In this document: in pieces, positions 6,058 through 29,332 of the stretch | Layout of the letters: the number at the start of each line of letters is the position of its first letter | Numbering within the stretch: the first letter of the stretch is position 1 | Origin: a virus | Virus record (IMG/VR): IMGVR_UViG_3300039412_000056 | Location: 1-30,602 of that record | DNA: 30,602 nucleotides | Strand: one strand, 5' to 3' | Made by a program: the position numbers and the translations under genes | Notes under the pieces: generated by a model | The model's database searches: none | What the model was told of the DNA's origin: nothing | Seen by the model: the letters and a program-made list of their open reading frames with translations, nothing else

Positions 6058-6843
6058 TTATTTGATTTCGAATTTTAACATATCTCCGTCGTTTGTCAAT
6101 TCATTTATTCTATAAAAACTACACCCAAGATGTTTAACTATTTCCTCTTGTCTTTTTACATCCCATTCCCTCAATTTACCACCTTTATAATGATGTCGTT
6201 CGTCCCATTCAATGACAATATTTTTACTTGGTTCATAATAGTCAACCCAATAATCCAAATCTTTAATATGATATTCTCCGTTCTTTGTAGCATAGTAACC
6301 ATCCCAACCAATTTTCAATTCCAACTGTTTAAAATATTCACAAGCAGTTTTATTATATACTGGGTTATATTTTTTAAGATGACTTAAATCTTTAATTCTA
6401 TTTATTCTCCGTTTTATTCGACTTTCTACTGACGCCTTCTTTCCTTTTTTAGAATTTGACATCTTTTGACACGATTCTTCACTTCTTATTATCCCTTTAA
6501 GGGCCTTACTTATTCTGTCTTTGTGTTCTTTGGTAAATGGAATTCCTTTAATTTTAGAAGGTTTTCCAATTAAAGATTTTGATATATTTTCACCTTTACA
6601 AAATGAACAAAAAGAATTTCTTTTTATTGCCCGAATTAAAACGTATTTCGTTGAATAACTAATATCTTTCCCACATTTAGGGCAATTTCTTTTCCAAATT
6701 TTCCCAGTATTTTCGCATACGTTCTTTTTTGATTCTATCTCCGTGTTTTTTGTAATATCGTTCATCTCTGACTCGCTTTTGTTCACGAAGTTCGGTTTTG
6801 GTTCGGTGGAGTTTTTTTCTTCCCATAATATCTTATTGTTCAT
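6058..6843 (-). CDS. Free-standing homing endonuclease: zinc finger, NUMOD3, Vsr/EDxHD-like nuclease
   Basis: A 261-aa mobile nuclease. From the ATG at 6843: a shared N-terminal segment (ILWEEKN, 5-11) that overlaps a second gene in another frame; a zinc finger with CPKC (54-57) and CSFC (79-82); NUMOD3-type DNA-binding motifs (about 92-118 and 125-140, GIPFTKEHKDRISKALKG); and a C-terminal nuclease resembling the Vsr-like EDxHD group, with DYWVDYYEPSKNIVIEWDERHHY and RQEEIVKHLGC (about 196-241). It homes next to the sliding-clamp gene, its likely target neighbourhood. The start is chosen because it lies 4 nt after a TATTTATG motif. A TTG 36 nt upstream would extend the frame but is unlikely. 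Confidence 0.85.
   Translation of the reverse strand: MNNKILWEEKNSTEPKPNFVNKSESEMNDITKNTEIESKKNVCENTGKIWKRNCPKCGKDISYSTKYVLIRAIKRNSFCSFCKGENISKSLIGKPSKIKGIPFTKEHKDRISKALKGIIRSEESCQKMSNSKKGKKASVESRIKRRINRIKDLSHLKKYNPVYNKTACEYFKQLELKIGWDGYYATKNGEYHIKDLDYWVDYYEPSKNIVIEWDERHHYKGGKLREWDVKRQEEIVKHLGCSFYRINELTNDGDMLKFEIK
6677..6826 (-). CDS. MGRKK small basic protein, nested in the endonuclease gene
   Basis: A 49-aa basic protein in a different frame from the endonuclease that covers it. It starts MGRKKLHRTK and contains RYYKKH and MRKYW. Its homologues at 16277-16444 and 28270-28419 align without gaps over about 40 residues (GRKKL, TK, RYY-RH, M--YW). Many of the base differences between copies fall in third positions of this frame (CTC/CTT, TAC/TAT, CAC/CAT), so this reading is under selection. 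GRKK with a Tyr/Arg-rich helix suggests DNA binding; function is otherwise unknown. The ATG is 17 nt inside the nuclease frame. The stop lies just before the zinc-finger part of the nuclease. Confidence 0.72.
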   Translation of the reverse strand: MGRKKLHRTKTELREQKRVRDERYYKKHGDRIKKERMRKYWENLEKKLP

Positions 6844-6847
6844 ATTA

Positions 6848-6880
6848 CATAAATATAATGTCGAAACATAAAACGACAAA
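6848..6880 (-). promoter_or_regulatory. Promoter-like motif before the clamp-side homing cassette
   Basis: On the minus strand: TTTG (6880-6877), GTTTTA (6874-6869), a 13-nt spacer, TATTTATG (6855-6848), then 4 nt to the ATG at 6843. A full match to the shared motif. Confidence 0.65.
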
Positions 6881-6885
6881 TATTT

Positions 6886-7446
6886 TTACATAAACGAATC
6901 TAACGTCAATTCTCGTTTCATAACTTTCTCATCAGGAATACAAAGGTTAATATCCACTCCAAACTTATTGGCAAATGGATGTAATTGGTTTTTTACTAAT
7001 AATTTCAAAGATTCCCTATCAGGGAGAGGGGTTAATCCTTTAGGTTCTAATACTTTTCCATACGGCCCTTTACGACCATTCTTTCCACCCGGAAGAGGTA
7101 GATTTACTGATTTAATGTCGTTCTCAAGAATGACAAGTTTTAAAGACTTGATTGAAGATTCCAACCATTCGAGTGTGCTCCAGTGACGCCAATCGTTTTT
7201 AACCGCAAGGCCTAAGACATAATGGGAATCGTTAGTGTCTTCGGTATGCCAGATGTAACAGTCGCCAGGGCGAATCAAATTTTTAGAACACTGTTCCTTG
7301 TAATGTTGAAACATTCTTGGATATCTATTTTTGAATTCAAGGGCGATGCCGGCTCCCATAGCTCCAACACAGTTTATTGTGTTGACGTAGGCATCTACTT
7401 TAGTGTCAAAAATAGATTTGTAAGATATTTGAAATCTGTCTGCCAT
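6886..7446 (-). CDS. Macro-domain protein (ADP-ribose-binding or hydrolysing)
   Basis: A 186-aa protein made mostly of a macro domain. The N-terminal half carries the family's ligand-loop hallmark: DAYVNTINCVGAMGAGIALEFK (18-39), followed by YP-MF-HY and a PGD turn (60-62), as in DarG/Poa1-type macro domains. The second conserved loop is unusual: PLPGGKNGRKGPYG stands where most members have a P-LGCG-GGL motif. Macro domains bind or remove ADP-ribose. In a phage this could reverse DarT-like ADP-ribosylation of DNA or act in nucleotide metabolism; that role is inference. It lies in the replication block between a nuclease gene and a homing endonuclease. Confidence 0.82.
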   Translation of the reverse strand: MADRFQISYKSIFDTKVDAYVNTINCVGAMGAGIALEFKNRYPRMFQHYKEQCSKNLIRPGDCYIWHTEDTNDSHYVLGLAVKNDWRHWSTLEWLESSIKSLKLVILENDIKSVNLPLPGGKNGRKGPYGKVLEPKGLTPLPDRESLKLLVKNQLHPFANKFGVDINLCIPDEKVMKRELTLDSFM

Positions 7447-7479
7447 AATGAGGTATTATCCACCCCATTGTGTAAAATG

Positions 7480-8028
7480 TCAAGGCTCTTTTGGAGGTTT
7501 AACAATTTTATAATGTGTCTTAACTTTATCCTCAAACAAACAAACGCCGGCTTCGGCAATGACTGAACGTGGAATCTTATACCCATAAGAATGAAACGGC
7601 TTACCTGTGGAATCTTTGTTCGGAATGGGTATCGGTTTCAGTTTATTTTCTTTGATGTATTTGTCAAGAAATTCACACAAAATCTTTGGGTCAAACCAAA
7701 ACAAGCTTTTCTCTGTTATGTAATAATATACAAATCTGTCAACCTTGTGTTGTAACGAACGCCACGGGCCTCCAGGAATATCCTTACCATCAGGTAAAAC
7801 GGTATTTTTTTCCATAAAGAAGTTTTTGGTCTTCTCCATAGAATAACTGTCAGTTTTCAATTCAACTGTGTAACCGTTGTTTAGAGTGAAGTCAATCTTT
7901 CGGTCATCTACACTCTTAACTGGGTTCAACTTTTTTTTGTATATTTTGATGAATTCGGCTTCACCCCTATCACCAACTCGCATTTGGTCTTTAAAGTTAA
8001 AGACCTTGCCACTCTTTTTTTTAGTCAT
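7480..8028 (-). CDS. PD-(D/E)XK nuclease-like protein
   Basis: A 182-aa basic protein with a likely PD-(D/E)XK nuclease core: GDRGEAEF helix (19-26, with E23), then DRKIDFTLNNGYTVELKTD, where D46 and E56-x-K58 form the D...ExK signature on adjacent strands. A C-terminal stretch (IPRSVIAEAGVC) resembles the end of Holliday-junction or restriction-like phage nucleases. Substrate is unknown; DNA processing during replication or recombination is the likely role given the location. It starts a few bases after the stop of the 61-aa gene upstream. Confidence 0.7.
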   Translation of the reverse strand: MTKKKSGKVFNFKDQMRVGDRGEAEFIKIYKKKLNPVKSVDDRKIDFTLNNGYTVELKTDSYSMEKTKNFFMEKNTVLPDGKDIPGGPWRSLQHKVDRFVYYYITEKSLFWFDPKILCEFLDKYIKENKLKPIPIPNKDSTGKPFHSYGYKIPRSVIAEAGVCLFEDKVKTHYKIVKPPKEP

Positions 8029-8031
8029 AGT

Positions 8032-8217
8032 TTATTTTAACGTCTTTCCGATACTTGGATGACGGTGAACTTCTTCTTGTAGGAATGCGTTCAATCTTGA
8101 ATTCATACGTATAAGGAAGTCTCCGCTAACTCTTGTAAATTTTCCGGCTCTATGAGCCTTGCTCAGTTCGAGTGCCATTCTTTTAACCGCTTGCCTATTG
8201 ATTAGGGGTGTATTCAT
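8032..8217 (-). CDS. Small conserved phage protein, 61 aa
   Basis: A 61-aa basic, helical protein with INRQAVKRMALELS, RAGKFTRVS and a C-terminal EVHRHPSIGKTL block. I have the impression of similar small proteins in other phages but cannot name a family. The RVS--FL-R pattern may be a short DNA-binding helix pair, which is speculation. Its ATG is preceded by TATAAT, a possible -10 element. Confidence 0.65.
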   Translation of the reverse strand: MNTPLINRQAVKRMALELSKAHRAGKFTRVSGDFLIRMNSRLNAFLQEEVHRHPSIGKTLK

Positions 8218-8279
8218 ATTATAATTGTAAGTCTATCAGTTATTTTTGATTAGTCAACTTTATACATTTTTTCGATTCA

Positions 8280-8417
8280 TCAAACCACACACTTATCAGA
8301 TTCATCAAAATAGTATCCATTGCCTATAATTTTAGTCGCTTCTCTAAGAATATCCTCAGTCCAAAATATTTGATTCAAACCATCATAAAAATTTGATTTA
8401 TGAATTAAAATTTTCAT
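8280..8417 (-). CDS. Unknown 45-aa protein
   Basis: A short gene starting MKILIHKSNF and ending DKCVV. Support comes from the start region: a GGAGA ribosome-binding site formed by the last codons of the polymerase C-terminal half (GGA GAA TGA), 5-6 nt before this ATG, so translation of the two is probably coupled. No family is recognised. The remaining 62 nt up to the next gene contain nothing I can identify. Confidence 0.5.
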   Translation of the reverse strand: MKILIHKSNFYDGLNQIFWTEDILREATKIIGNGYYFDESDKCVV

Positions 8418-8418
8418 A

Positions 8419-9741
8419 TCATTCTCCGAAATTAAAAAAGTTAGCAGCTGTTTTTACGGACGGATTTGGGAACGACCATTTTAAAACATCGTAAAAATCT
8501 TCTAATTTACTTTTCAGTTCGTTTTCAAACATTTTCTTTCTATCAACGTGAGTATTGATAAAATCCAACAATTCATCGGCATCGTTGCCGTCGCCTTTGA
8601 ATGCTATGGCATCAAGACCATAACCATTCTTTTGTAAATATACCCATTTGATTTTACTACCATGATGGATAGGTTCACAAGTCTTCTCAAGACCCATCTT
8701 CAAAATCAAATCATTGTAGGCGAGTGCTGCCTTCGCTTGGGCGGGTGTTTTATTCTCAAAATGAAATGGCCTTCTACTCTCTGGATTATAATTATTGGCC
8801 CCATCTTGGCTTACGTATTTTACAGAAGTATTCTTGGCAATTTCAATGACAGGCAAAGTCTTTATTACATCTTCTCTCGCCTTGAGAATCATTTCATCAA
8901 TTTCCGCCTTTGGTGCTGCGGTCAACAGTTTTCTCAAAAATAAATCCATAAACTTACGGAATGCCGAAGGGAACGATGTTCTAACAACGTCAATACCCTT
9001 GACTTCCAATTCAGGCTTTTCCAATAGATGACCTTCTTTATGAATAATCCATTGTGCGTAACGTTTCTTTGCCAACCAAAATGAAGTCTTACTGATAACT
9101 TCCTGTTTGGCGTCAAACGTATGCTTTGGAATATTGAAAAATCTCTTGGCCATGATGTCATAGAACTTATTAACATAAGTCTGAACTTCTGTTGTGACAC
9201 TCATGATTGCCTTTGTCATTTCATCATCGTTATTAAAATTTATATCAGGAAATCTCTTTTTGATAATAGGAACTGCGTCAACAAAACAAGAATCTGTATC
9301 GCTGTAAACAACCCAATCACCTTCTTCTACTTCCAAAGCATTCTTATAGTAAATGTTAATGGCTTTTGATGTGGTCTGAATAATATCGACTCCAGACATG
9401 GTTACGGCTTCAGCGTTATCAATATCATAGAAACGGAAGATTGGAAGACCCAACACACCGTAGAACGAGTTAAGTAAAATCTTTTGAACTTGTTGGCGTT
9501 GATTGTAGAAATTATACTTTTCAATGTTGCCGGCTTTTCTAAACTCGGCAGCTTTCTTTCTCATTTCCTTACGTTGCAAAAACCAAAGACTTAATAATGT
9601 CGGCACTACACCAATACCAACAGTTTCTATAATATTATCATTATCATCAAGTTCTAATTTATTTTCAACTAAAAAGATTTTAAATTCTTCTTCTGTTGAA
9701 AACTTCTTTGTCAAACCTTTATATTCTATTTCAATTTCCAT
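8419..9741 (-). CDS. 43: Family B DNA polymerase, C-terminal half (palm/fingers/thumb)
   Basis: A 440-aa protein that completes the split replicative polymerase. From the ATG at 9741: a short region of uncertain origin (1-40); the GVVPTLL--WF-QRKEMRK linker (about 44-62); motif B KILLNSFYGVLG (87-98); motif C YSDTDS (146-151) with the two catalytic Asp; the KKRYA motif; a KGIDVVRTSFP block; and the thumb. It contains no exonuclease and no motif A; those are on the other half (10665-12245). The ATG overlaps the HNH stop by 11 nt, so translation is probably coupled. An in-frame extension to 9792 would only read the HNH gene in another frame and is rejected. Confidence 0.92.
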   Translation of the reverse strand: MEIEIEYKGLTKKFSTEEEFKIFLVENKLELDDNDNIIETVGIGVVPTLLSLWFLQRKEMRKKAAEFRKAGNIEKYNFYNQRQQVQKILLNSFYGVLGLPIFRFYDIDNAEAVTMSGVDIIQTTSKAINIYYKNALEVEEGDWVVYSDTDSCFVDAVPIIKKRFPDINFNNDDEMTKAIMSVTTEVQTYVNKFYDIMAKRFFNIPKHTFDAKQEVISKTSFWLAKKRYAQWIIHKEGHLLEKPELEVKGIDVVRTSFPSAFRKFMDLFLRKLLTAAPKAEIDEMILKAREDVIKTLPVIEIAKNTSVKYVSQDGANNYNPESRRPFHFENKTPAQAKAALAYNDLILKMGLEKTCEPIHHGSKIKWVYLQKNGYGLDAIAFKGDGNDADELLDFINTHVDRKKMFENELKSKLEDFYDVLKWSFPNPSVKTAANFFNFGE

Positions 9742-10312
9742 ATGATATAACCATCTTACACAACTTTTTAAATTTATCAACATTAAAATCATTTTTCATA
9801 ATGTTTATATCTTTGTGAACCCACTGAATATTGCCTTTGACATATCCTTTAGAAGAATCAATTCTATCAAGTGAAGCTGTAGTTTCTTCATAAGTTCCTG
9901 TTATTTTATCGTTTCTTCCACCGAATTTAATATCCAATCCGGTTAAAGCACATTTTTTATTTTGTTTAATAAATAAATTCCACAAATATTCATCATCAAT
10001 TGAAACTTTTATGCCCTTAGTTTTAGCATTTCTTTTCATTCTACTTAAATAACATCCTGGAATATCACCAACACCTTTCCAAAAACAACTATTATTTTTT
10101 CTTCTAACACAATTACATCCCCAAGATATTCCGGCTTTTAATTTTCTACACGAAACATATCTTTCAGTTCCTTTATCACAATCACATTTTACTTTGACTG
10201 AATATTCTTTCATATGATTTAAAAATATTGGTTTAGAATCGGTTACAATCCACTTTCCAAATTTATCCCCAATATTGAATGTTTTTTCGTATTTACTTAT
10301 ACCTTTTTCCAT
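9731..10312 (-). CDS. HNH homing endonuclease inserted in the polymerase locus
   Basis: A 193-aa endonuclease. The N-terminal part has a zinc-binding look (CDC at about 43-45, WGCNCVRRK), followed by CYLSRMKRNAKTKGI and the HNH core: CALTGLDI, then LDRIDSSKGYVKGNIQWVHKDINIMKN, the hallmark of phage AP2/HNH homing enzymes. It has its own strong ribosome-binding site (AAAGGAAA, 5 nt before the ATG), so it is free-standing and not an intein. Its 3' end overlaps the start of the polymerase C-terminal half. It is the likely agent, or a later occupant, of the polymerase split. A degenerate TACTTATA box lies upstream near 10335-10342. Confidence 0.9.
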   Translation of the reverse strand: MEKGISKYEKTFNIGDKFGKWIVTDSKPIFLNHMKEYSVKVKCDCDKGTERYVSCRKLKAGISWGCNCVRRKNNSCFWKGVGDIPGCYLSRMKRNAKTKGIKVSIDDEYLWNLFIKQNKKCALTGLDIKFGGRNDKITGTYEETTASLDRIDSSKGYVKGNIQWVHKDINIMKNDFNVDKFKKLCKMVISYGN

Positions 10313-10360
10313 GTTATTTCCTTTCGTTGGTTTCTATATATAAGTATAGTGTAGAAATGA

Positions 10361-10663
10361 TTAAGATTGAATATTAGATAATATTTTTGCCAATAATTCC
10401 AAATCCGGCATTATATTATGGTCGATAATATAATGAGAATATCCGTCTGGATAAACAAATTCATCATCCGTCAAACAAGTTGTTCCGTTCATTTTACCAC
10501 AGATTCTACATTTAGAAAATCCCATCCAGGCCGATTGTAATTTTCCTCTATTCAAATATTCTACAACTTTTTGTTTTGTTTCCAAAGGCAATCTACCTTC
10601 GGTTGGCCAAGGCAAATTTTCATTAGATTCTTCTTTTTGTCTCCAATATCCGACTTGTTTCAT
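10361..10663 (-). CDS. Unknown 100-aa protein between the polymerase halves
   Basis: A 100-aa protein with W-RQKEESNENLPWP near the start, then WMGFSKCRICG, CLTDDEFVYPDGYSHYI and DHNIMPDLELL. Three Cys could bind zinc (CRIC...C). I recognise the WMGFS-CRICG...G--Y-HY layout as a recurrent small phage protein of unknown role. Its ribosome-binding site (AAGGAAA) is made from the last codons of the polymerase N-terminal half, whose stop lies 1 nt before this ATG. Confidence 0.72.
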   Translation of the reverse strand: MKQVGYWRQKEESNENLPWPTEGRLPLETKQKVVEYLNRGKLQSAWMGFSKCRICGKMNGTTCLTDDEFVYPDGYSHYIIDHNIMPDLELLAKILSNIQS

Positions 10664-10664
10664 A

Positions 10665-12245
10665 TTATTTCCTTATTATTTTTCCTACAATCTTTTTTTC
10701 TGGTTGACGGTATAAAACACCATTAGAACTCAAACTGTAGTTGGCCTCTTTTATCAAGGATTTGAATTCGGGTTTCTTATATTCAGTTGTTCCAAGATGG
10801 TAATGTTCCAATTTTTCACGAACATGATATTCCATGTCAAACTCACGACAACGTTTCTGAATGTATTCTTCCTTACCTTCCTCATTTGACCAAAGACGTT
10901 CTTTCATTTCCGTTTCCATTTCATCAATCTCTTTGAGAACAGAACGACGTTTTTCAACCTTACAATCATCATTGTAATCGGCCTTGATAATCTTACCAAC
11001 CTTCGTTTCAGGAGAAATATTCAAAGAAATGATGATATTAGGATACATGGATGTCAAATCCAAATCGAATACCCAATCATATCGGCCTGGAACCGGCTCT
11101 TTAACGAAAGCACCTGAAAATCCTTCTTCTCCATCTTCCTGTTGTTCTTCGTATTCTTCACGTCCACCAGCAGGCTTATTTGGGGCAATGACATTATTTC
11201 TATGAAGATACATCAAAGAAGCACCGTCAAGATATCTTGCCGGCATATGAAAACTTTCGTAAGGAACATGACCAACGTGACAGATGTTTCTGTAAAGGTC
11301 AATAAGTTTTAACTTAACGTCAATCGCCACAACGATTTTTACGTCAGTGATGTTATACTCCAAAAACTTCTTGATGTCAGACTTGTATAAGTCGTTGAGA
11401 TTTCCGTGGTATTGAACCTTACCGAAACCAACAACCTTCTTACCAATTGGCCCCAATGCCCAAGTAGGTTCCATTTTACCAGCCAAGAATTTCTTATACA
11501 AAAGAATGTAATCCATTACAGATATACCTGCAATAGTCAGTTTTTTATTGTAAGCATTGAGATAACAAGTTCCAATCGGAGAAAGGCATTTTGCCGCCTT
11601 GGCCGTAAGACAACTCTTGAGACGAGTGTATAGATACGGCATATCGAAGAAATCTACGTTCCAACCTGTAACTATGGTAAAGGCACATTCTTGCCATTTA
11701 TCCATGAAACTTATTAACATATCGTCTTCACTGTCATAAGGCAATGTGACGATTTTAATTTTCTTACTTTCTTCTTCTGACTGAACTTTCCAATCGGTAG
11801 GCAACCAAGCATCAACTTCACTTTCATCTTTTTCTACCTTACCATCCTTATCAAGAACAAAAACATAACAAGTTCTTGTAATACAGTCGTAAAGGGAAAT
11901 ACTTGTAATTTCCTTGTCGGCTAGTTCCATATTTGGAAACCCGCCTTCGGTGGATACTTCTATGTCAATGACACCAACCCGATGACCTATTGACGGCTCA
12001 TCTGAATCCTTGTAGTAATCTAAAAGAACTCTCATTTCGGCCGGAACATCGGATTCGAAGAGATTTGGGTCTTTGTCGTTGTAGTTGGTGACTCTTACTA
12101 ATTCATCACCATAGAGAGATTTGAAGTTGCCGCCGGGATGACGTTTATACGCATACTTTTCGTATGGGAACGTTCTGTAACCTTTTTCATCATCCCATAG
12201 ATGAACAGTATTATCTTTTCTGCTGATGTAAATGTTTTGATACAT
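10665..12245 (-). CDS. 43: Family B DNA polymerase, N-terminal half (exonuclease and motif A)
   Basis: A 526-aa protein with the N-terminal domain, the 3'-5' exonuclease and the first part of the palm. Exo I DIE at 94-96, Exo II NVDFFD at 196-201 and Exo III YNITD at 297-301 are intact, so proofreading should be active. Motif A is D396-LTSMYPN followed by SPET. It ends after NGVLYRQPEKKIVGKIIRK, just where an intact family B enzyme would run into the fingers. Motifs B and C are on the gene at 8419-9741. Together the two total ~966 aa, a normal T4-type size. The two proteins probably assemble, as for the split gene 43 of some T4-like Aeromonas phages. Confidence 0.94.
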   Translation of the reverse strand: MYQNIYISRKDNTVHLWDDEKGYRTFPYEKYAYKRHPGGNFKSLYGDELVRVTNYNDKDPNLFESDVPAEMRVLLDYYKDSDEPSIGHRVGVIDIEVSTEGGFPNMELADKEITSISLYDCITRTCYVFVLDKDGKVEKDESEVDAWLPTDWKVQSEEESKKIKIVTLPYDSEDDMLISFMDKWQECAFTIVTGWNVDFFDMPYLYTRLKSCLTAKAAKCLSPIGTCYLNAYNKKLTIAGISVMDYILLYKKFLAGKMEPTWALGPIGKKVVGFGKVQYHGNLNDLYKSDIKKFLEYNITDVKIVVAIDVKLKLIDLYRNICHVGHVPYESFHMPARYLDGASLMYLHRNNVIAPNKPAGGREEYEEQQEDGEEGFSGAFVKEPVPGRYDWVFDLDLTSMYPNIIISLNISPETKVGKIIKADYNDDCKVEKRRSVLKEIDEMETEMKERLWSNEEGKEEYIQKRCREFDMEYHVREKLEHYHLGTTEYKKPEFKSLIKEANYSLSSNGVLYRQPEKKIVGKIIRK

Positions 12246-12866: not shown

Positions 12867-12879
12867 CAGAGGGGAGAAG

Positions 12880-16223: not shown

Positions 16224-16258
16224 TTTCCGTGTTTTTTGTTCCGTGAAATATACTTATT
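16224..16258 (+). promoter_or_regulatory. Degenerate promoter-like motif before the second MGRKK cassette
   Basis: TTTC (16224-16227), GTTTTT (16231-16236), a 14-nt spacer and TACTTATT (16251-16258). It is followed by a GAGAAAG ribosome-binding site and the MGRKK ATG at 16277. Weaker than the other copies and further from the start codon. Confidence 0.4.
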
Positions 16259-16276: not shown

Positions 16277-16444
16277 ATGGGAAGAAAGAAATTATATGTC
16301 ACCAAAAAACAAAAGCGAGAATCTAAACGAAAAGACGATAGATTGTATTACGAACGACACAAAGAGCGAATCAAGCAAAAACGGATGGAAGATTATTGGA
16401 GGAAAAAAGAAGTGGATAAGAAAATGTCCGAAGTGTCAAAATGA
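16277..16444 (+). CDS. MGRKK small basic protein (second copy)
   Basis: A 55-aa basic protein beginning MGRKKLYVTKK, with LYYERHKERIK and MEDYW, homologous to the copies at 6677-6826 and 28270-28419. Here it has its own ribosome-binding site (GAGAAAG, about 7 nt before the ATG), and the overlapping nuclease frame has no upstream ATG. This is the clearest case that the small protein is the primary product of the shared 5' module. Likely DNA binding, from charge and the GRKK start; function otherwise unknown. Confidence 0.75.
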   Translation: MGRKKLYVTKKQKRESKRKDDRLYYERHKERIKQKRMEDYWRKKEVDKKMSEVSK

Positions 16445-17198
16445 TATTATCGTTTCTAGTGAAAAATATTATAATGAATCTATTAACAAAAATTCATTAT
16501 GTCTTTTTTGTGCATCAAAATCATCACATAAAAATAGAGGGCATATATCAAAAGAAGAAAAGAAAAAAATATCAATAGAATGTCCTAAATGTAATAAACC
16601 ACGACCATATTATAGAACAATTTTAAATAATAGATTGTGTAAATCGTGTGCGGCTAAAAATAATTATCCACATCAAAAAGAATTACTATTATATGGAATA
16701 TTACACAATAGAATTCATGGAAAAACTATCAAATCTAAAAATATAGAAAGAAATTGTCCAAAATGTAATAAAATTATAAAAAATACATCTTTACATTATG
16801 TGAATAAAAATAAACACCGATTATGTAAATCTTGTGCATGTAAAGAAAACGTTAGAAAAAATAATATCAATTTTCCAAATATTCCATCGTTTAATCCTAA
16901 TGCGTGTAAAATAATAGATGAATATGGAAAACAAAACGGATATAATTTTCAACATGCGTTAAATGGTGGAGAAATATTCATTAAAGATTTGGTCGTGTGG
17001 TTAGATGGATATGATAAAGAAAACAATGTTGTAATAGAATGTTATGAACCATTCCATTATTATTGCGATGGCCGACTAAAATCAAAAGACATTATTAGAC
17101 AAGAAAAAATCATAAATCATTTAAAATGTAAATTAATTGAAATTATGTATGACGGAAAATCTAATAATATCAAATCAATAAAAACTTTTTCAAAATAA
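16296..17198 (+). CDS. Homing-type nuclease with repeated zinc fingers and Vsr/EDxHD-like domain
   Basis: A 300-aa protein if begun at the ATG at 16296. Several CxxC pairs (CPKC, CLFC, CPKC, CKSC, CPKC, CKSC) form a series of zinc fingers. The C-terminal nuclease domain matches the one at 6058-6843: FIKDLVVWLDGYDKENNVVIECYEPFHYY followed by RQEKIINHLKC. The nuclease frame is open further 5' (to a TTG at 16215), including IWEERN, but has no ATG there. Translation must start inside the MGRKK gene, use a poor start codon, or reach this frame by a shift from the MGRKK frame. Confidence 0.75.
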   Translation: MSPKNKSENLNEKTIDCITNDTKSESSKNGWKIIGGKKKWIRKCPKCQNDIIVSSEKYYNESINKNSLCLFCASKSSHKNRGHISKEEKKKISIECPKCNKPRPYYRTILNNRLCKSCAAKNNYPHQKELLLYGILHNRIHGKTIKSKNIERNCPKCNKIIKNTSLHYVNKNKHRLCKSCACKENVRKNNINFPNIPSFNPNACKIIDEYGKQNGYNFQHALNGGEIFIKDLVVWLDGYDKENNVVIECYEPFHYYCDGRLKSKDIIRQEKIINHLKCKLIEIMYDGKSNNIKSIKTFSK

Positions 17199-19251: not shown

Positions 19252-19285
19252 TTTGAGTGTTTTTGAATTTTTCATTATATTTATT
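19252..19285 (+). promoter_or_regulatory. Promoter-like motif before RHH-nuclease cassette 1
   Basis: TTTG (19252-19255), GTTTTT (19259-19264), a 13-nt spacer, TATTTATT (19278-19285), then 3 nt to the ATG at 19289. Almost identical to the copy before cassette 2 (22077-22110). Confidence 0.65.
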
Positions 19286-19288
19286 GTT

Positions 19289-19441
19289 ATGAACAAAAAA
19301 CGTAGAACCGTTAATATTCCAGACGAGATTTATAAATCTTTAAAGGAATATTGTGACAAAAATGGTTTAAAGATACGGTGGTTATTGGAAAAAATCATAA
19401 CAGAGCATATCAATGAAAACCAAACCAAAGATAAAATGTAA
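19289..19441 (+). CDS. Ribbon-helix-helix-like protein of cassette 1
   Basis: A 50-aa protein: RRTVNIPDEIYKSLKEYCDK, then LKIRWLLEKIITEHINEN, a short beta strand and two helices as in Arc/MetJ-type DNA-binding dimers. Start chosen at the ATG 3 nt after TATTTATT; an upstream in-frame extension would run through the promoter. The 3' end overlaps the nuclease gene by 29 nt, with the nuclease ATG embedded in the INEN codons. It has a close homologue at 22114-22266 in the same arrangement. Likely autoregulator or DNA-binding partner of the nuclease, which is inference. Confidence 0.75.
   Translation: MNKKRRTVNIPDEIYKSLKEYCDKNGLKIRWLLEKIITEHINENQTKDKM
19331..19419 (+). repeat. 89-bp direct repeat, copy 1
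   Basis: Matches 22162-22250 without gaps at about 80 of 89 positions by eye. Covers the helices of the RHH gene and the start of the nuclease gene. Confidence 0.8.
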
Positions 19442-20204
19442 TTGTCAAATTTGTAATAAAGAATTTTTTAAAAATGAATCTGTGATAAAAATGGGATGGG
19501 CAAAATATTGTTCTAAAAAGTGTTCTTACAAATCAAAAGAAACATTAAATAAATATAGAAATAAAATTTGCGTTATTTGTGGAAAAAATTTTATATCAAA
19601 TCAAAAATTTAAAAAACAAGTATTATCACATAAATATTGTTCTAAAGAATGTAGTAGTATAGGTAGGTCACAACAAAAGAAAACAGGAATTAATAAGACG
19701 TGTATTCAATGTGGTAAACAATTTTATACTAAAATACATAATAAAAAAACACATAATTTTTGTGGTCGAAGATGTCATTATATTTACAAAACAGGAAAAC
19801 CAAACCCAAAAGCATCTAAAACTCTGGCAAGGAAGATTGCATCTGGAGAAATAAATCCGAAACGAAATTTCTACAAACAAGGATGGTATAAAACAAAAGA
19901 CGGTAATAAAGAGTGGTTTGGTTCTTCATATGAAGAAAAACGAATGAAACAGTTAGATGGGATGAAAGTAAGATGGACAAAAAATCATGGTATTAGAATA
20001 CCATATACAGATAATGATGGAAGAAAAAGAAATTATGTTCCTGACTTTTTAGTAAATGATAAAATCATAGAAGAAGTTAAACCAAAAAATTTAGTAAACT
20101 CTAAAATGGATAACAATTTATTAAAACATCAGTCCGCTATAAAATTTTGTAATAAAAATGGGTATCAATTCAGAATAATAACGGAAAAAGAATTGGATGT
20201 ATGA
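19413..20204 (+). CDS. Zinc-finger nuclease of cassette 1 (PD-(D/E)XK, TnsA-like core)
   Basis: A 263-aa protein. Three zinc-finger-like modules: C11/C14 with C33/C37, C53/C56 with C76/C80, and C97/C100 with C117/C121. Then a short NUMOD-like linker and a nuclease core: SSYEEKRM (Glu ~174), RIPYTDNDGRKRNYVPDF (D211), DKIIEEVKP (E221, K223), and a C-terminal NGYQFRIITEKEL. The E...D...ExK order resembles PD-(D/E)XK enzymes such as the TnsA N-terminal domain. It is probably a free-standing homing nuclease. Its stop overlaps the next gene's start (ATGA), fusing it into the operon. Confidence 0.78.
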   Translation: MKTKPKIKCNCQICNKEFFKNESVIKMGWAKYCSKKCSYKSKETLNKYRNKICVICGKNFISNQKFKKQVLSHKYCSKECSSIGRSQQKKTGINKTCIQCGKQFYTKIHNKKTHNFCGRRCHYIYKTGKPNPKASKTLARKIASGEINPKRNFYKQGWYKTKDGNKEWFGSSYEEKRMKQLDGMKVRWTKNHGIRIPYTDNDGRKRNYVPDFLVNDKIIEEVKPKNLVNSKMDNNLLKHQSAIKFCNKNGYQFRIITEKELDV

Positions 20205-21092: not shown

Positions 21093-21096
21093 AAAC

Positions 21097-21125: not shown

Positions 21126-21132
21126 AAACTAT

Positions 21133-21702: not shown

Positions 21703-21704
21703 TT

Positions 21705-22070: not shown

Positions 22071-22076
22071 AATATT

Positions 22077-22110
22077 TTTGTGTGTTTTTGTATTTTTCTG
22101 TATATTTATT
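22077..22110 (+). promoter_or_regulatory. Promoter-like motif before RHH-nuclease cassette 2
   Basis: TTTG (22077-22080), GTTTTT (22084-22089), a 13-nt spacer, TATTTATT (22103-22110), then 3 nt to the ATG at 22114. Confidence 0.65.
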
Positions 22111-22113
22111 GTT

Positions 22114-22266
22114 ATGAAACAAAATGATGACCGCAAAACCGTTAGTGTTACTGGTGATGTATATAAATCTCTAAAGGAACATTGTGACAAAAACGGTTTA
22201 AAGATACGGTGGGTGTTGGAGAAAATCATAACGGAGTATATTAATGAAAATAATAAAAAAGTGTGA
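22114..22266 (+). CDS. Ribbon-helix-helix-like protein of cassette 2
   Basis: A 50-aa homologue of the gene at 19289: RKTVSVTGDVYKSLKEHCDK, then LKIRWVLEKIITEYINEN. Same length, same promoter spacing, and the nuclease ATG embedded in the same INEN codons (23-nt overlap). The N-terminal strand differs most (NIPDEI versus SVTGDV), as expected if the two proteins recognise different operators. Confidence 0.75.
   Translation: MKQNDDRKTVSVTGDVYKSLKEHCDKNGLKIRWVLEKIITEYINENNKKV
22162..22250 (+). repeat. 89-bp direct repeat, copy 2
   Basis: Partner of 19331-19419, about 90% identical by eye and ungapped. Beyond it the downstream nuclease genes diverge strongly. Confidence 0.8.
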
Positions 22267-22855
22267 AATATGCGATAAACATTTTACACCGACAACAAGA
22301 GGCAAAAAAGGAAGAGCATTTAGATTTTGTAGTAATGAATGTAAATTTAAATATCAAAAAGAACATCCTCCAGTTCCAAAATCGGGGATTTATAAAATTT
22401 GTGAATGGTGTAACTCTAAATTTTATGTCCAACAAAATGAAATCCGATATAGATGTTGTTCTTCCAAATGTGGAAATTTGAACAAAGCAAGTAAAGGATT
22501 ACATCATTCAAATTTATATACTAAAGGATATTATAAATCAAAAGTTACAGGAAACAAAGAACACTATGACAGTTCTTACGAACTTATAAGAATGGAACAA
22601 TTGGATGAAATGAAAGTTATATGGACAAAACACCACAAAATAGCAATTCCGTATAAAGACAATAAAAATGAAATTCATCATTATATTCCTGATTTCTTAA
22701 TTGATAATAAAATCATAGAAGAAGTCAAACCGAGAAAAATAATAAAATCAAATTATTTAAACACAAAAATAAAATTAAAGGCGGGAAGAAAGTATTGTAA
22801 AGAAAATGGATATAAATTTAGAATAATAACAGAAAAAGAATTAGGAATAAAATAA
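22244..22855 (+). CDS. Zinc-finger nuclease of cassette 2 (PD-(D/E)XK, TnsA-like core)
   Basis: A 203-aa relative of the nuclease at 19413, shorter by one zinc-finger module. C7/C10 with C29/C33 and C53/C56 with C71-72/C76 form two fingers. The nuclease core has SSYELIRM, IAIPYKDNKNEIHHYIPDF (D150) and NKIIEEVKP (E160, K162), ending NGYKFRIITEKEL. It is inserted between the 121-aa gene and the second GT4 gene, 3 nt before the latter. Confidence 0.78.
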   Translation: MKIIKKCEICDKHFTPTTRGKKGRAFRFCSNECKFKYQKEHPPVPKSGIYKICEWCNSKFYVQQNEIRYRCCSSKCGNLNKASKGLHHSNLYTKGYYKSKVTGNKEHYDSSYELIRMEQLDEMKVIWTKHHKIAIPYKDNKNEIHHYIPDFLIDNKIIEEVKPRKIIKSNYLNTKIKLKAGRKYCKENGYKFRIITEKELGIK

Positions 22856-22858
22856 TAT

Positions 22859-24193: not shown

Positions 24194-24870
24194 TGAAATT
24201 ATCATATTTAATTACTGTTCACAATGAAACCGATACGTTGATTCGACTATTAGAAAAGTTGGTCAATAATCGGGCCGCTGGAGACGAAATAGTTATTTTA
24301 GATGACCATTCAGACAATCTTAAAACGGCACAAATCATGACCGATGTTTGTAAAAATCATGATGTTTTTACATATCTCCATAGGTTGAATGGGGATTATG
24401 GAGCACATAAAAACTTTGGTAATGAAAAATGCACCGGCGATTGGATATTTCAAATTGATGCCGATGAAAATCCAGCAGATACTCTTATTTTTAACATAAG
24501 AGAAATCATCGAAACAAATTTGATGATGGAAATGATATACGTTCCTAGAATCAACGATTTCAGGGGCGTCACGCCAGAAGAAGCAAGAAAGTGGGGATGG
24601 AGATTATCACCTTCACCAACATACGAAAATAGACCTATTGTAAATTGGCCTGATTATCAGAGTCGAATTTATAAGAGAGACGTGAATAGAATCAAGTGGG
24701 ATAGAAAGCTACATGAAAAAATTATCGGTCATACCCAATATGCTTTTCTACCAGCAAATGAAGATTTGGCTCTTTATCACGATAAAACAATCGAAACACA
24801 AATAAAAACGAATCAACGATATAATCAACAATTTAGTGTTGAAGATAATCTTGGACACAAAGTATCATGA
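24193..24870 (+). CDS. GT2-type glycosyltransferase
   Basis: A 225-aa GT-A enzyme. LSYLITVHNETDTLIRLLEKL at the N-terminus, VILDDHSDN (34-42), and the metal-binding DAD motif in QIDADENP (87-94). The C-terminal part has a WDRKLHEKI block that resembles the catalytic region of the waaE/kdtX-like GT2 group (lipopolysaccharide core glucosyltransferases), so a similar reaction is possible. Overlaps its neighbours by 1 and 4 nt in a tight operon. Confidence 0.88.
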   Translation: MKLSYLITVHNETDTLIRLLEKLVNNRAAGDEIVILDDHSDNLKTAQIMTDVCKNHDVFTYLHRLNGDYGAHKNFGNEKCTGDWIFQIDADENPADTLIFNIREIIETNLMMEMIYVPRINDFRGVTPEEARKWGWRLSPSPTYENRPIVNWPDYQSRIYKRDVNRIKWDRKLHEKIIGHTQYAFLPANEDLALYHDKTIETQIKTNQRYNQQFSVEDNLGHKVS

Positions 24871-25466
24871 GTGAGTGGGTAATAAAACAGGCGGCGTATA
24901 AACCAAAAATACGAGACTTGAATAATAATGATAAAACCTTTCAGGAAATTTATCAGGATGTTCTTGCGGCTGGATGGAATACAGACAAGGGAACTACTCA
25001 TGCTTATGTGGATAGTTACGCAGAATTATTCAAACCATATCGTAACCAACCAATAAATCTATTGGAAGTCGGTATTGACTTTGGATATAGTCTGGCATTG
25101 TGGAGAGCCTATTTTGACAAAGCTACAATTTATGGTGTTGACATCAGAAACGTCCTACAATTCACCGAAGAAGTGAATCCGGTCATTCATGATGGAAATG
25201 ACCCAAGCATCATTGAAAAATATTTTTCAAATCTGGAATTTGATATTATTATTGACGATGCAAGTCATGAAGTTCAACATCAAGTTTTGAGATTTCCAAT
25301 ATACTTTCCAAAGTTGAAAAAAGGTGGATTGTATGTCATTGAAGACGTTCAAGATTTGGATAAAGAAGGTGATTTATTAAGAGCATTAGACCCAACAGCA
25401 GAAGTCATTGATAACCGTAAATTAAAGGGCCGATATGATGACGTAATGTTTGTTTACAGAAAGTAA
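24867..25466 (+). CDS. SAM-dependent methyltransferase, macrocin-O-methyltransferase-like
   Basis: A 199-aa class I methyltransferase. TDKGTTHAYVDSYAELFKPYR precedes the SAM-binding loop LLEVGIDFGYSLALW (65-79) and the acidic strand end VDIR (91-94); FDIIIDDASHEVQHQ contains the catalytic-site Asp/His. The arrangement resembles sugar O-methyltransferases such as those acting on demethylmacrocin. Within a glycosyltransferase cluster a glycan O-methylation role is likely (inference). Confidence 0.83.
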   Translation: MSEWVIKQAAYKPKIRDLNNNDKTFQEIYQDVLAAGWNTDKGTTHAYVDSYAELFKPYRNQPINLLEVGIDFGYSLALWRAYFDKATIYGVDIRNVLQFTEEVNPVIHDGNDPSIIEKYFSNLEFDIIIDDASHEVQHQVLRFPIYFPKLKKGGLYVIEDVQDLDKEGDLLRALDPTAEVIDNRKLKGRYDDVMFVYRK

Positions 25467-25469
25467 AAT

Positions 25470-26705
25470 ATGAATAAAGACTACAAAGAATTATTTCAAT
25501 GTCCGGTGACAGTCTCAACAGATAAATTTTCTTATTTGGATTTTGGGCCAATGCCTTTGGTAAACAATCTGAATAATACAAAACAAGAATCTTTGGATTG
25601 TCCAAGGCATCCTCTTGTAGTCAATTATTACCCAGATAGTAAACTTTCAATGTTGTCCGTTGCAATCAAACCTGAAATTTTGTTTGCTCACTACGTTTAT
25701 AAATCAGGAACCAGTCAACCATACATCGAACACTGCAAAGAAATGTATGAATACATTTCAAAATTTGTAATAATCAATGACCACGACAGATTTGTTGATA
25801 TTGGTGGTAATGATGGAACATTGCTTTCAACTTTCAAAACTAAATCTGGAAGACCTATTGATACCATAAACGTTGACCCATCAGAAAACATCAGTAAAAT
25901 CTCAAGAGACAAAGGAATCATCACACTTACAAAAATGTGGGACGCTACAGTAGGAGCCCAGATGAATGGGACTTGTAAGGTTATTACATCCACTAACGTC
26001 TTTCAACACACCGAACCGATTGGTAACTTTGCCAGTGGAGTTTGGCACGCTTTAAGAGACGATGGCATTTGGTGTTTGGAATTCCCTTATTGGGGGCATG
26101 ATTTGGAAACGTATCAATACGACCAAGTGTATCATGAACACATCTATTACTATCTATTGACTCCATTGTTCAAATTATTCAATGACAGAGGATTCAGAAT
26201 ACTTGACGTTTCCGAAAGAAGTATTCACGGTGGAAGTCTTCGTATTATCAGTCAGAAAAGAAACAAGGATAATGATTTTGTTCCAGAAAGTGTGGCAAGA
26301 GTTTTGGAAAAAGAAAAAATATTTGATAACAATTTTTACAAAGTTTGGGGTGAGAATATGAAAACTCACGCCATTGAAAGTAAAAAGTTTCTGACAGACC
26401 TAAAAGAGTCTGGTAAGAAAATTGCTGCTTTCGGTGCGGCGGCAAAAGGATGCACATTCTTAAACGCCACCGGAATCAATCATGAAATCATAGATTACAT
26501 CGTGGATGACACTGATACAAAGCAAGGCAAATTCATGCCAGGAACAGGAATTGAAATTGTCAAGAGACAACATCTTATTGATAACCAACCGGATTATGTC
26601 GTAATTTTAGCACATAATTTTGCTAACTATATCAGAACTTCATTGAAACCAATTTTCAGTGGTAAGTTCATTGTCATGTTTCCTAGACCAGTAATTTATG
26701 ATTAA
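25470..26705 (+). CDS. Sugar C-methyltransferase-like enzyme
   Basis: A 411-aa protein with the three-part layout of NDP-sugar C-methyltransferases (TylCIII-like): a reduced N-terminal putative zinc-binding region, a central SAM domain with VDIGGNDGTLLS (109-120) and the YHEHIYYYLLTPLFKLF active-site helix, and a C-terminal Rossmann-like domain with KIAAFGAAAKGCTFLNATGI and IVDDTDTKQGKFMPGTGIEI. The N-terminal part keeps few of the usual Cys, so zinc binding may be lost. Such enzymes add a branch methyl group to a keto-sugar before transfer. Confidence 0.87.
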   Translation: MNKDYKELFQCPVTVSTDKFSYLDFGPMPLVNNLNNTKQESLDCPRHPLVVNYYPDSKLSMLSVAIKPEILFAHYVYKSGTSQPYIEHCKEMYEYISKFVIINDHDRFVDIGGNDGTLLSTFKTKSGRPIDTINVDPSENISKISRDKGIITLTKMWDATVGAQMNGTCKVITSTNVFQHTEPIGNFASGVWHALRDDGIWCLEFPYWGHDLETYQYDQVYHEHIYYYLLTPLFKLFNDRGFRILDVSERSIHGGSLRIISQKRNKDNDFVPESVARVLEKEKIFDNNFYKVWGENMKTHAIESKKFLTDLKESGKKIAAFGAAAKGCTFLNATGINHEIIDYIVDDTDTKQGKFMPGTGIEIVKRQHLIDNQPDYVVILAHNFANYIRTSLKPIFSGKFIVMFPRPVIYD

Positions 26706-26722
26706 TAATAATTTTGAAATAA

Positions 26723-26755
26723 TTTACAGTTTTATCATCACATAATATATTTATA
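26723..26755 (+). promoter_or_regulatory. Promoter-like motif before the LRR protein
   Basis: TTTA (26723-26726) in place of TTTG, GTTTTA (26729-26734), a 13-nt spacer, TATTTATA (26748-26755), then 12 nt to the ATG at 26768, including AGG. Confidence 0.6.
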
Positions 26756-26767
26756 GGTTAAAATATT

Positions 26768-27538
26768 ATGTCAAATTTATACCTTCCACTATCAGAAATA
26801 ACATCGAGTTCATCTTGCAGTTATGTTATACCAACAAGTGCTTCATATTCTATATCGGCGTCATATGCTCAAAATGTATCAAACTTTGGAGGTATAACTA
26901 CACAGGCAACATTATTCAGTTTTAATAATGTTGGAAGCGAATATATAAATCCAATAGTATCAGCATCGTATTCTTTTGCCACATTTCAATTTACAAGCGG
27001 GTCACTAACATCTGTTGCATATGGTGTTCCTGTAAATAATGATTTAATATTCTCCGGTTCAGGAAATAGTTTGTATATAATATTTAATCCCTCAGATTCT
27101 ATTAATGAAGCATCATCTGGTTGGTCTTCTGTAGAGGGATTAAATTGTGTAAATATGACTTCGTTAGATGTTTCAAATAATAGTTTGACATCTTTACTTT
27201 TAAGTGGTTCTACTTCGTTGGTAACATTAGATTGTTATGAAAATTCATTAACAACTCTTGATATATCAACGCTTACATCATTACTTACGTTTTTACCTTA
27301 TCAAAATAGTTTAACTTCATTAACAATGTCAGTATCTTCATCTATAACATATTTGAATGCTAGATTTAATTCATTAAATCAATCTTCGGTAGATAGTATT
27401 TTGGGGTCATTAGTCAATGGTGGAAAATCAAATGGAACTGTATATGTTGATGACCCAGGAAATTCAGCACCAAGTTCCGCTGGTCATGCTAGCGCATCAA
27501 TTCTTACTGGAAGAGGTTGGTCTGTATTGACAAATTGA
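26768..27538 (+). CDS. Leucine-rich-repeat protein, probable virion or adhesion protein
   Basis: A 256-aa, Ser-rich protein. The N-terminal SASYSISASYAQNVS resembles short heptad-like repeats found in phage tail-fibre and collar proteins. From about 125 to 205 it has LRR units of ~21 residues (LTSLDVSNNSLTSLLLSG, VTLDCYENSLTTLDIS, ...ITYLNARFNSLNQSS), ending in a TGRGWSVLTN cap. No signal peptide. It sits in the glycan gene cluster but has its own promoter motif, as expected of a separately expressed virion gene. Receptor binding is a possibility, not shown. Confidence 0.75.
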   Translation: MSNLYLPLSEITSSSSCSYVIPTSASYSISASYAQNVSNFGGITTQATLFSFNNVGSEYINPIVSASYSFATFQFTSGSLTSVAYGVPVNNDLIFSGSGNSLYIIFNPSDSINEASSGWSSVEGLNCVNMTSLDVSNNSLTSLLLSGSTSLVTLDCYENSLTTLDISTLTSLLTFLPYQNSLTSLTMSVSSSITYLNARFNSLNQSSVDSILGSLVNGGKSNGTVYVDDPGNSAPSSAGHASASILTGRGWSVLTN

Positions 27539-27544
27539 TTTATC

Positions 27545-28204
27545 ATGAATAAAAATGATGTTTACACATCTCAATTGACAACTAATATTGTTGAAACATA
27601 TTGTAAAATCATACAACCATTAGATAAATTAGAAAAACCATGCGATGTTTGGTTTGATGGTTCTCAAAAACCGTATGAGTTTTATAATGCTTGGAACTCT
27701 GTAGGAGATATTCTAAAAAATGAAGAAATTCCTACTATGTTAGAAATAGGAGCATTTAAAGGACTTTGGGCTATAGCCTTTTTTGAGTGGTGTAAATTGA
27801 ATAATAAGCACGGCGAATATTACACCGTTACTTGGTTAAAACACGATTGCCAGAATAAAGATTTAAAAAATGTTCAAAAATACTATTTGGAACAGGGGTT
27901 TAAATTTAAACTATTTGATAAAAATTCACAATTAATTTCTACAAAAGAAGAAGTAGTAAAAGAAAAATCCGATTTCAATTTTGTATTTATTGATGCCGAC
28001 CACACTTATGACGGCATAACCAAAGATATTCATCTTTATTCTTCTTTATCAACTAAAATTTTAGGATTTCATGATATTAGACCAAGAGAAATTCAAATTA
28101 ACATTATGGGGGTTTATAAAGCCCTCGAAGACAATAAAATAATATTTGATAAAGAGTTCATTTGCGATGATACTCACATGGGTATAGGTCTAAAATATAA
28201 TTAA
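27545..28204 (+). CDS. SAM-dependent methyltransferase-like protein
   Basis: A 219-aa class I methyltransferase of the Methyltransf_24-like type: MLEIGAFKGLWAIAFFEW (65-82) is the SAM loop, FVFIDADHTYDGITKDI (about 146-162) the metal/substrate strand, and LGFHDIRP a conserved end. It probably methylates a sugar or small molecule, given the neighbouring glycosyltransferases. It starts 6 nt after the LRR gene. Confidence 0.75.
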   Translation: MNKNDVYTSQLTTNIVETYCKIIQPLDKLEKPCDVWFDGSQKPYEFYNAWNSVGDILKNEEIPTMLEIGAFKGLWAIAFFEWCKLNNKHGEYYTVTWLKHDCQNKDLKNVQKYYLEQGFKFKLFDKNSQLISTKEEVVKEKSDFNFVFIDADHTYDGITKDIHLYSSLSTKILGFHDIRPREIQINIMGVYKALEDNKIIFDKEFICDDTHMGIGLKYN

Positions 28205-28209
28205 TATTC

Positions 28210-28242
28210 TTTCACGTTTTATTCTTTCACTTTATATTTATA
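28210..28242 (+). promoter_or_regulatory. Promoter-like motif before the third MGRKK cassette
   Basis: TTTC (28210-28213), GTTTTA (28216-28221), a 13-nt spacer and TATTTATA (28235-28242), then 4 nt to the ATG at 28247. One of the best matches to the shared motif. Confidence 0.65.
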
Positions 28243-28246
28243 TGGT

Positions 28247-29332
28247 ATGGATAATACCACATCAATTTTATGGGAAGAAAAAAACTTAATCGAACCAAAG
28301 AAGAACTTGCCGAACAGTCAAATAATCGTTCCAAACGATATTATCAGCGACATAAAGAAGAATGTAACAGGAAATCCATGCGAAGATACTGGAAACGAAA
28401 AGCGAAGAAAATATTGTAAATGGAATACATCGGGATTCATAAAACAATTAAATATCATTCATAAAAATAAATATGATTATTCTAATACCCATTATATACA
28501 TTCTCATATTAAAATAAATATATTATGTCCAAAACACGGAAAATTTAATATATTACCACATGAACATTTAAGAGGAAGAGGATGTAAAAAATGTTATAAT
28601 GAACGAAGAGTTTCTAATACAGAAAATTTTATTAAAAAAGCCAAAAAAATTCACGGTGATAAATACAATTATTCTAAAACCAATTATAAAAGAGCGATAA
28701 AAAAAATTACAATAATATGCCCGATTCATGGCGATTTTAAACAAACTCCAAATAGTCATTTATATGGATACGGATGTAAAAAATGTGCAACTGATTATAA
28801 TAGACAATTAACAAAATCTAATACCAAAGAATTCATTAAAAAAGCCAAAAAAATTCATGGGAATAAATATGATTATTCAATGACGAATTATATAAACGTC
28901 TCTACTCCTGTTAATATCATATGTAATAAACACGAATCATTTTTTCAAATTCCAAATTATCATCTATCAAACAAAAGTGGATGTCCAAAATGCACTCATA
29001 GAATATCAAATCCAGAACAAGAATTTTTAGATTATTTAAAAATTCCAAATACTAACAAAAATAGACAAGTAAAAATATGTCTAAAAAAAGTAGATGGTTT
29101 AAAAAATAAAACTATATATGAATTTCTTGGGGATTATTATCACGGAAATCCAGAAAAATATAAGCCGAACGACTATAATCAAATCTGTCACAAAACCTTC
29201 GGACAACTTTACAGAGAAACTTTCGATAAACTCAATAAATTAAAATCTCTCGGTTATAATGTAAAATATATTTGGGAGTCTGACTGGAATAATTTTAAAA
29301 AAGGAAACCAATTAAAATTACAATCATTATGA
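28247..29332 (+). CDS. Homing endonuclease with three repeated zinc modules and Vsr-like nuclease
   Basis: A 361-aa protein. The shared N-terminal ILWEEKN segment (7-13) overlaps the MGRKK gene. Three repeats of ~53 residues follow (64-116, 128-180, 196-249), each with IHG-KYDYS, C--HG-F, P--HL and GC-KC, likely zinc-dependent DNA readers. A Vsr-like nuclease domain closes the protein (257-348: QEFLDYL, KVDGLKNKTIYEFLGDYYHGNP, LGYNVKYIWESDW). No other ATG exists in this frame for the first ~200 codons, so translation starts at 28247 or the frame is reached by a shift from MGRKK. The stop overlaps the following GT2 gene (ATGA). Confidence 0.85.
   Translation: MDNTTSILWEEKNLIEPKKNLPNSQIIVPNDIISDIKKNVTGNPCEDTGNEKRRKYCKWNTSGFIKQLNIIHKNKYDYSNTHYIHSHIKINILCPKHGKFNILPHEHLRGRGCKKCYNERRVSNTENFIKKAKKIHGDKYNYSKTNYKRAIKKITIICPIHGDFKQTPNSHLYGYGCKKCATDYNRQLTKSNTKEFIKKAKKIHGNKYDYSMTNYINVSTPVNIICNKHESFFQIPNYHLSNKSGCPKCTHRISNPEQEFLDYLKIPNTNKNRQVKICLKKVDGLKNKTIYEFLGDYYHGNPEKYKPNDYNQICHKTFGQLYRETFDKLNKLKSLGYNVKYIWESDWNNFKKGNQLKLQSL
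28270..28419 (+). CDS. MGRKK small basic protein (third copy), nested
   Basis: A 49-aa basic protein beginning MGRKKLNRTKEEL, with KRYYQRHKEE and MRRYWKRKAKK, in a different frame from the nuclease. It aligns gap-free with the copies at 6677-6826 and 16277-16444. The stop falls right before the first zinc module of the nuclease. It has no clear ribosome-binding site, being 23 nt downstream of the nuclease ATG, so expression could rely on reinitiation or leaky starting. Confidence 0.72.
   Translation: MGRKKLNRTKEELAEQSNNRSKRYYQRHKEECNRKSMRRYWKRKAKKIL

Follow-up and report, generated by a model that had tools for sequence, protein, structure and literature searches.

To our knowledge, how phages with free-standing homing nucleases avoid self-harm is understood mainly from phage T4. 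The homing endonuclease I-TevI of phage T4 represses its own late promoter via an overlapping operator (PMC2988022). In type II restriction–modification (RM) systems, the C.PvuII-dependent transcript is leaderless, controller and nuclease are translated independently and natural fusions of the two exist (PMC2997769, PMC3850674). ShiLan-type HNH endonucleases are hidden out of frame, with a leaderless start proposed (PMC11855218). Here, we analysed a 30,602-nucleotide stretch of viral DNA (IMG/VR record IMGVR_UViG_3300039412_000056, hereafter the window) in which three homing nuclease genes each carry, in a second frame at the 5′ end, a small gene which we call MGRKK after its first residues. 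The original prediction for this DNA held that either a DNA-binding protein is translated beside the nuclease or a frameshift joins the two. The former option gains strong support from our sequence comparisons, which also point to the likely target, and the latter is disfavoured: with a probability of roughly 80%, the small, helical MGRKK protein binds DNA sequence-specifically, at the repeats of its own promoter, and controls the transcript of both itself and the nuclease, repression being likelier than activation.

The controller (C) proteins of RM systems appear to be the closest parallel in logic. Like them, MGRKK is a small, putative DNA-binding protein encoded on the 5′ side of a nuclease gene and overlapping it, a repeated operator is found in the promoter shared with that gene, and controller–nuclease fusions occur (compare locus L064, below). 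Neither its sequence nor its predicted fold, however, suggests membership, as RM C proteins are helix-turn-helix proteins whereas MGRKK lacks any family match, one long helix being predicted instead. Furthermore, RM C genes overlap the nuclease gene by ~20 nt whereas nearly all of MGRKK lies inside the nuclease frame, and its partners, unlike those in RM systems, are homing-type nucleases from several unrelated families. No methyltransferase partner was seen beside MGRKK, but none was sought and the flanks have no systematic methyltransferase annotation. As with I-TevI, a phage homing endonuclease would be limited by binding at an operator; however, I-TevI is itself the repressor, whereas the putative binding function here sits in a separate nested gene, the L064 fusion excepted. 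An operator-binding domain within the nuclease polypeptide was not found, MGRKK being in the other frame except in L004/L005 and L064. The ShiLan-type arrangement likewise has a phage homing nuclease overlapping another coding frame, but there the nuclease is hidden in a host gene, whereas here a regulator-like gene is hidden in the nuclease gene. No paper on nested regulators in homing nucleases was found in the open literature, most subscription journals being outside the scope of the search.

A conserved gene nested in homing nuclease genes

All three MGRKK open reading frames (ORFs) are present where the original prediction placed them, and the equal offset it claimed for the nuclease frame turned out to be +1 with respect to MGRKK in each case. 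Querying IMG/VR with the 49-aa protein detected 17 loci and a 15-member profile detected 79, most of them metagenomic viral contigs (L numbers denote these relatives; W1, W2 and W3 are the window cassettes 1, 2 and 3). Together with the window's three, the IMG/VR loci gave 66 distinct cassettes for frame analysis, and DNA scans later added more. MGRKK is a conserved protein family of ~50 aa, and its nesting is genuine and very unlikely to be accidental. When codons were reshuffled under a fixed nuclease-frame protein, a 29-codon open MGRKK frame was expected in 0.3 of 52 loci, taking related loci as independent in this and the following open-frame count, yet all 52 had it. The mean amino-acid identity of MGRKK was 0.58, against 0.26 expected from the same fixed nuclease-frame protein, although the identity expectations leave shared ancestry aside and such comparisons are indicative only. 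In the reciprocal test, where MGRKK was fixed and codons were redrawn from background usage, the nuclease frame was open over 42 codons in 52 of 66 cassettes (5.7 expected), and its identity within the overlap was 0.37 versus 0.28 expected from MGRKK constraint alone, in keeping with the earlier suggestion that the nuclease N-termini look conserved mainly because of MGRKK.

These comparisons indicate constraint on both frames, and the open-frame and identity tests together suggest that MGRKK is selected as a protein, and the overlapping part of the nuclease frame chiefly for its openness. Disruption of MGRKK in loci whose nuclease frame stays open had been named beforehand as grounds for doubt; the reverse was seen, in that MGRKK is the better conserved frame and persists uninterrupted in loci with a closed or broken nuclease frame (L004, L012, L017, L019 and L022).

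A promoter element specific to MGRKK cassettes

Almost every cassette is preceded by the element TTTTxxACGTTTTATtcTTxxACnnnaTATTTAT, the repeats of which are direct, with a period of 15 nt (12 or 14 in some cassettes, including W2), and end 3–6 nt ahead of a TATTTAT or TACTTAT box. When scored with a position weight matrix (PWM), the W1 and W3 operators were the only sites in the window above 9.1 bits, and all hits above 34 bits in the window and ~60 loci precede MGRKK ORFs, including four others in the loci. The W2 operator was missed owing to its geometry, which is unlike that of the main 15-nt class. Four DNA-only scans of IMG/VR gave 90 unique motif sites: an MGRKK relative (profile E below 1e-3) lay downstream of 48 of 48 sites with at least six of eight matching repeat positions, and of 9 of the 42 sites with fewer. 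The scans also recovered forms which the protein search had missed (MGRKPKS, MGRRRL, MGRHRL, MGRNKL and MGRERL). By this sequence evidence, the element is specific to MGRKK cassettes. A subclass with R21-M22 (L057, L070, L073, L077, L080 and L076) has repeats seemingly spaced 12 rather than 15 nt apart and a changed distance to the box.

The box itself is more widespread. TATTTAT was the top enriched 7-mer before 298 other ORF starts on the same contigs, from which operator-bearing (ACGTTTTAT) starts had been removed (38 occurrences versus 2.9 expected), mostly 11–15 nt ahead of the ATG, hence it is probably a promoter element of this phage group. Leaderless or near-leaderless transcripts are suggested as a rule in these T4-like phages. 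Within the window and the loci, TATTTAT(A) was observed 11–15 nt before many ATGs, for example at 2213, 2955, 14327 (−) and 26748 (+).

Repeats covary with two residues of MGRKK

Cassettes with 12- or 14-nt repeat geometry, such as W2, L057, L073 and L076, were excluded from the covariation statistics. The variable dinucleotide was the same in both repeats of 57 out of 72 cassettes (mean 14 and maximum 29 over 10,000 permutations), and residues 17 and 21 of MGRKK had the highest mutual information with it, whether all sequences were used or the set was thinned to 80% or 70% identity. After thinning, the first base of the dinucleotide was best tracked by residue 21 and the second by residue 17. 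Using an alignment anchored on RxxRYY and only relatives of <60% identity elsewhere as predictors, the pair 17 + 21 ranked first of 351 column pairs, with 0.77 of dinucleotides predicted correctly (0.22 by class-frequency chance, 0.21 for the median pair). N17 goes with TA (10 of 10 cases), Q17-R18-A21 with TG (12/12), S17-N18-S21 with TC (8/8) and K17-R18-D21 with CG (3/3), while R17-R18-Q21 is accompanied by CT (n = 7) or CG (n = 2). As a control, spacer and box bases 24–26, 29 and 30 gave z values below 2 against residues 17/21, versus 6–14 for repeat bases. The repeats thus covary with each other and, across these alignments, with residues 17 and 21 of the protein.

AlphaFold2, run on a 55-sequence alignment, predicted helices at residues 3–7 and 10–47 (pLDDT 91, pTM 0.58), and in this model residues 17 and 21 lie on one face of the long helix. 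The helical moment of the covariation was 0.40 (permuted 0.19, p = 0.013). No match of weight was found for MGRKK in Pfam, PHROGs or NCBIfam, and no family among PDB sequences (best E 0.35), while three queries against 50,697 INPHARED phages yielded nothing convincing (one hit at E 0.5). A search of 84,980 genome species gave a single match, L144 (JAPLWP010000089.1), a 4.6-kb metagenome contig labelled Candidatus Magasanikbacteria which may be a phage contig within the bin. Membership of the ribbon-helix-helix (RHH) proteins was likewise not found, as MGRKK had no RHH match and its model is helical only. The protein family, its near-complete nesting and the putative cognate operator are new here.

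Several observations weigh against recognition of the repeats by MGRKK. The two repeats of W1 disagree in their dinucleotide (TG/CG). A prospective test with an unanchored, ungapped alignment predicted 14 of 24 correctly, as did its whole-protein control (14/24), and the anchored test which reached 0.77 was devised after this outcome; in the prospective test the alignment of four proteins was wrong, and training cases were few or absent for two classes. A lone long helix, as predicted here, is no known DNA-binding fold, and the model is silent on any oligomer. Finally, cassettes sharing a contig had the same repeat class in 3 of 17 pairs (2.3 expected), showing no avoidance, hence the idea of orthogonal repeat classes within one phage is unsupported.

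Probable separate translation starts

Among the 66 cassettes, the nuclease frame is open with an ATG upstream of MGRKK in 45 loci, while in the other 21 it is blocked by a stop, often at the TTA AAT of MGRKK Leu6-Asn7, or has no upstream ATG. Nineteen of these 21 have a +1 nuclease, the remaining two being L064 and L082. Downstream of its last stop, the nuclease frame has an internal ATG in all 19 such +1 loci (at codon 6, 10, 13, 24 or 40) versus 20 of the 45 with an upstream ATG (Fisher p = 1e-5), which favours independent starts and speaks against an obligatory frameshift. A downstream frame lacking its own start codon, as in programmed frameshift genes, was thus not found. Where an upstream nuclease ATG exists, it lies 4–7 nt past the box in 41 of 51 loci, and the MGRKK ATG occupies this position in 18 of 27 loci without one. 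MGRKK and the nuclease hence appear to be translated from independent starts.

Proposed mechanism and alternatives

From these patterns we infer that MGRKK physically binds DNA and regulates its own expression, more likely by repression, that transcription is leaderless and that the two proteins have separate starts. MGRKK would bind the two direct repeats beside the box of its own cassette and so set the level of a transcript, leaderless from the TATTTAT box, which encodes both MGRKK and the homing nuclease. The first ATG past the box would be that of the nuclease in most loci and that of MGRKK in others, with the other protein starting internally. Repression is favoured because TATTTAT boxes without repeats serve many other genes, hence the box seems functional alone, and because limiting a free-standing homing nuclease has a precedent in I-TevI (PMC2988022). 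Activation of the promoter by bound MGRKK, or activation followed by repression, is possible but less probable: the repeats sit immediately before the box, a conserved host −35 element was not seen and RM C proteins act in both directions (PMC3850674), whereas boxes without ACGTTTTAT repeats precede many other ORFs on the same contigs and repeat 2 ends so near the box that binding there would tend to block polymerase. MGRKK could instead serve to target the nuclease to DNA, either as one of its subunits or within the homing machinery, with repeats that mark or mimic the target. It is always beside a nuclease, one in-frame fusion exists (L064), and I-TevI uses one DNA-binding domain for both homing site and operator (PMC2988022). 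We consider such a role unlikely, however, as a single 196-bp promoter–MGRKK block precedes two unrelated nucleases (L085 and L129, below), and the repeats are inside the cassette, travel with it and keep a fixed distance from the promoter box.

The constant +1 offset and the L064 fusion are what a programmed +1 frameshift yielding an MGRKK–nuclease fusion protein could explain, but this is very improbable and we reject it as the main explanation, since the internal ATG retained in the 19 loci without a usable upstream start would be superfluous, and a nuclease frame open before and through the overlap would be needless if the shift occurred near the MGRKK stop. Slightly less credible still is covariation through shared ancestry, in which promoter and MGRKK, being physically linked, were co-inherited without recognition: spacer and box bases, although equally linked, show no covariation with residues 17/21, both repeat copies change in step, and the signal persists among relatives of <60% identity elsewhere. 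For the possibility that MGRKK is untranslated and its frame an accident of a conserved nuclease N-terminus, no supporting point was found, and the open-frame excess, together with a conservation above that of the nuclease frame, leaves its likelihood negligible. Binding of MGRKK to its own promoter repeats is hence the reading we prefer.

Diverse partner nucleases

MGRKK partners vary by locus and include GIY-YIG, GIY-YIG with NUMOD3, DUF723/treble-clef, zinc-ribbon proteins with EDxHD-like ends (VSR-like) and HNH-like repeat proteins. Family matches in the +1 frame were to GIY-YIG (L040, L018), NUMOD3 (W1, L007, L018) and DUF723 (W3, L064), while several HNH/Zn-type partners had no significant Pfam match. 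The original prediction had MGRKK end just before a zinc-finger region; this fails as a general rule, as many partners are GIY-YIG or DUF723 nucleases and MGRKK there stops where that domain begins. In nearly all loci, the offset of the nuclease frame from MGRKK is +1. In L082, an exception, a zinc-type protein is in +2, and the MGRKK frame of L004/L005 reads straight on into what is left of a deleted nuclease. In L064 (3001–4053), MGRKK and a DUF723-type nuclease form one natural in-frame fusion (351 aa overall), where the old +1 frame has stops and the usual repeats stand upstream.

L085 and L129 share 196 identical bp, from 65 upstream to 131 downstream of the MGRKK ATG, beyond which L085 has a GIY-YIG nuclease and L129 an HNH-type nuclease, with unrelated upstream flanks. 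The same block before unrelated nucleases suggests that promoter and MGRKK act as a unit to which nucleases get joined. We consider it somewhat more likely than not that this module is followed by interchangeable nuclease payloads, the homing nucleases of phages spreading behind it, and that MGRKK founds a new minimal controller family (~45 aa) reading two operator bases via residues 17 and 21 of one helix.

Cassettes and neighbouring features in the window

The three window cassettes and their putative operators are listed in Table 1.

Table 1. Positions of MGRKK cassette features in the window
Feature	Position	Strand	Details
Operator-promoter, cassette 1	6849–6882	−	Direct repeats TTTGTCG ... 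TTTCGAC, then TATTTAT box 6849–6855; PWM score 38.2
MGRKK gene, cassette 1	6677–6826	−	49 aa; K17, D21; CG-class repeats
Nuclease 1: zinc-ribbon, NUMOD3, MTES_1575-like	6058–6843	−	Frame +1; ATG 5 nt past TATTTAT box (start read from sequence)
Operator-promoter, cassette 2	16225–16257	+	Exact TTCCGTG repeat, 14-nt spacing, then TACTTAT 16251–16257
MGRKK gene, cassette 2	16277–16444	+	55 aa; K17, D21
Nuclease 2: zinc-ribbon	16296–17198	+	Frame +1; first in-frame ATG internal, 16296; none upstream
Operator-promoter, cassette 3	28208–28241	+	TTTCACG ... TTTCACT, then TATTTAT box 28235–28241; PWM score 40.0
MGRKK gene, cassette 3	28270–28419	+	49 aa; S17 N18 S21; TC-class repeats
Nuclease 3: phrog_681 endonuclease, DUF723	28247–29332	+	Frame +1; ATG 5 nt past TATTTAT box

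Nuclease 2 reads IECYEPFHYY (17000–17070, +) where relatives have EYDE-HH, for example IEWDERHHY in W1; an Asp and a His presumed to be catalytic are thus replaced, and this nuclease may have lost its activity, with its own MGRKK intact. The DNA polymerase gene (8419–12245, −) consists of two ORFs with a nuclease-like ORF (9731–10312) in between, a layout as for an intron or free-standing homing insertion.

Two TnsA/PD-(D/E)XK-like nuclease cassettes (19278–20204 and 22103–22855, +) are each located behind a small RHH-like ORF (19289–19441 and 22114–22266; weak Pfam matches), which overlaps the nuclease start by ~25 nt and has GTGTTTTTGnATTTTTC repeats upstream and a TATTTAT box 4 nt before the ATG. 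Two relatives, L145 and L146, have unchanged upstream sequence. As with MGRKK, a small putative DNA-binding protein with repeats and a TATTTAT box precedes a nuclease, but the protein and repeats are different and the overlap is shorter, making this another controller-like arrangement of the phage, distinct from the first.

Implications

Double coding accounts for an N-terminus which might otherwise pass for a nuclease extension without meaning. Such cassettes can also be found from DNA alone by their 34-bp promoter signature. The relation between residues and bases offers a testable recognition code for a very small protein. If the proposed mechanism is true, the nuclease gene in this uncultivated phage group would carry a separate nested controller together with its cognate operator, an arrangement convergent with RM systems.

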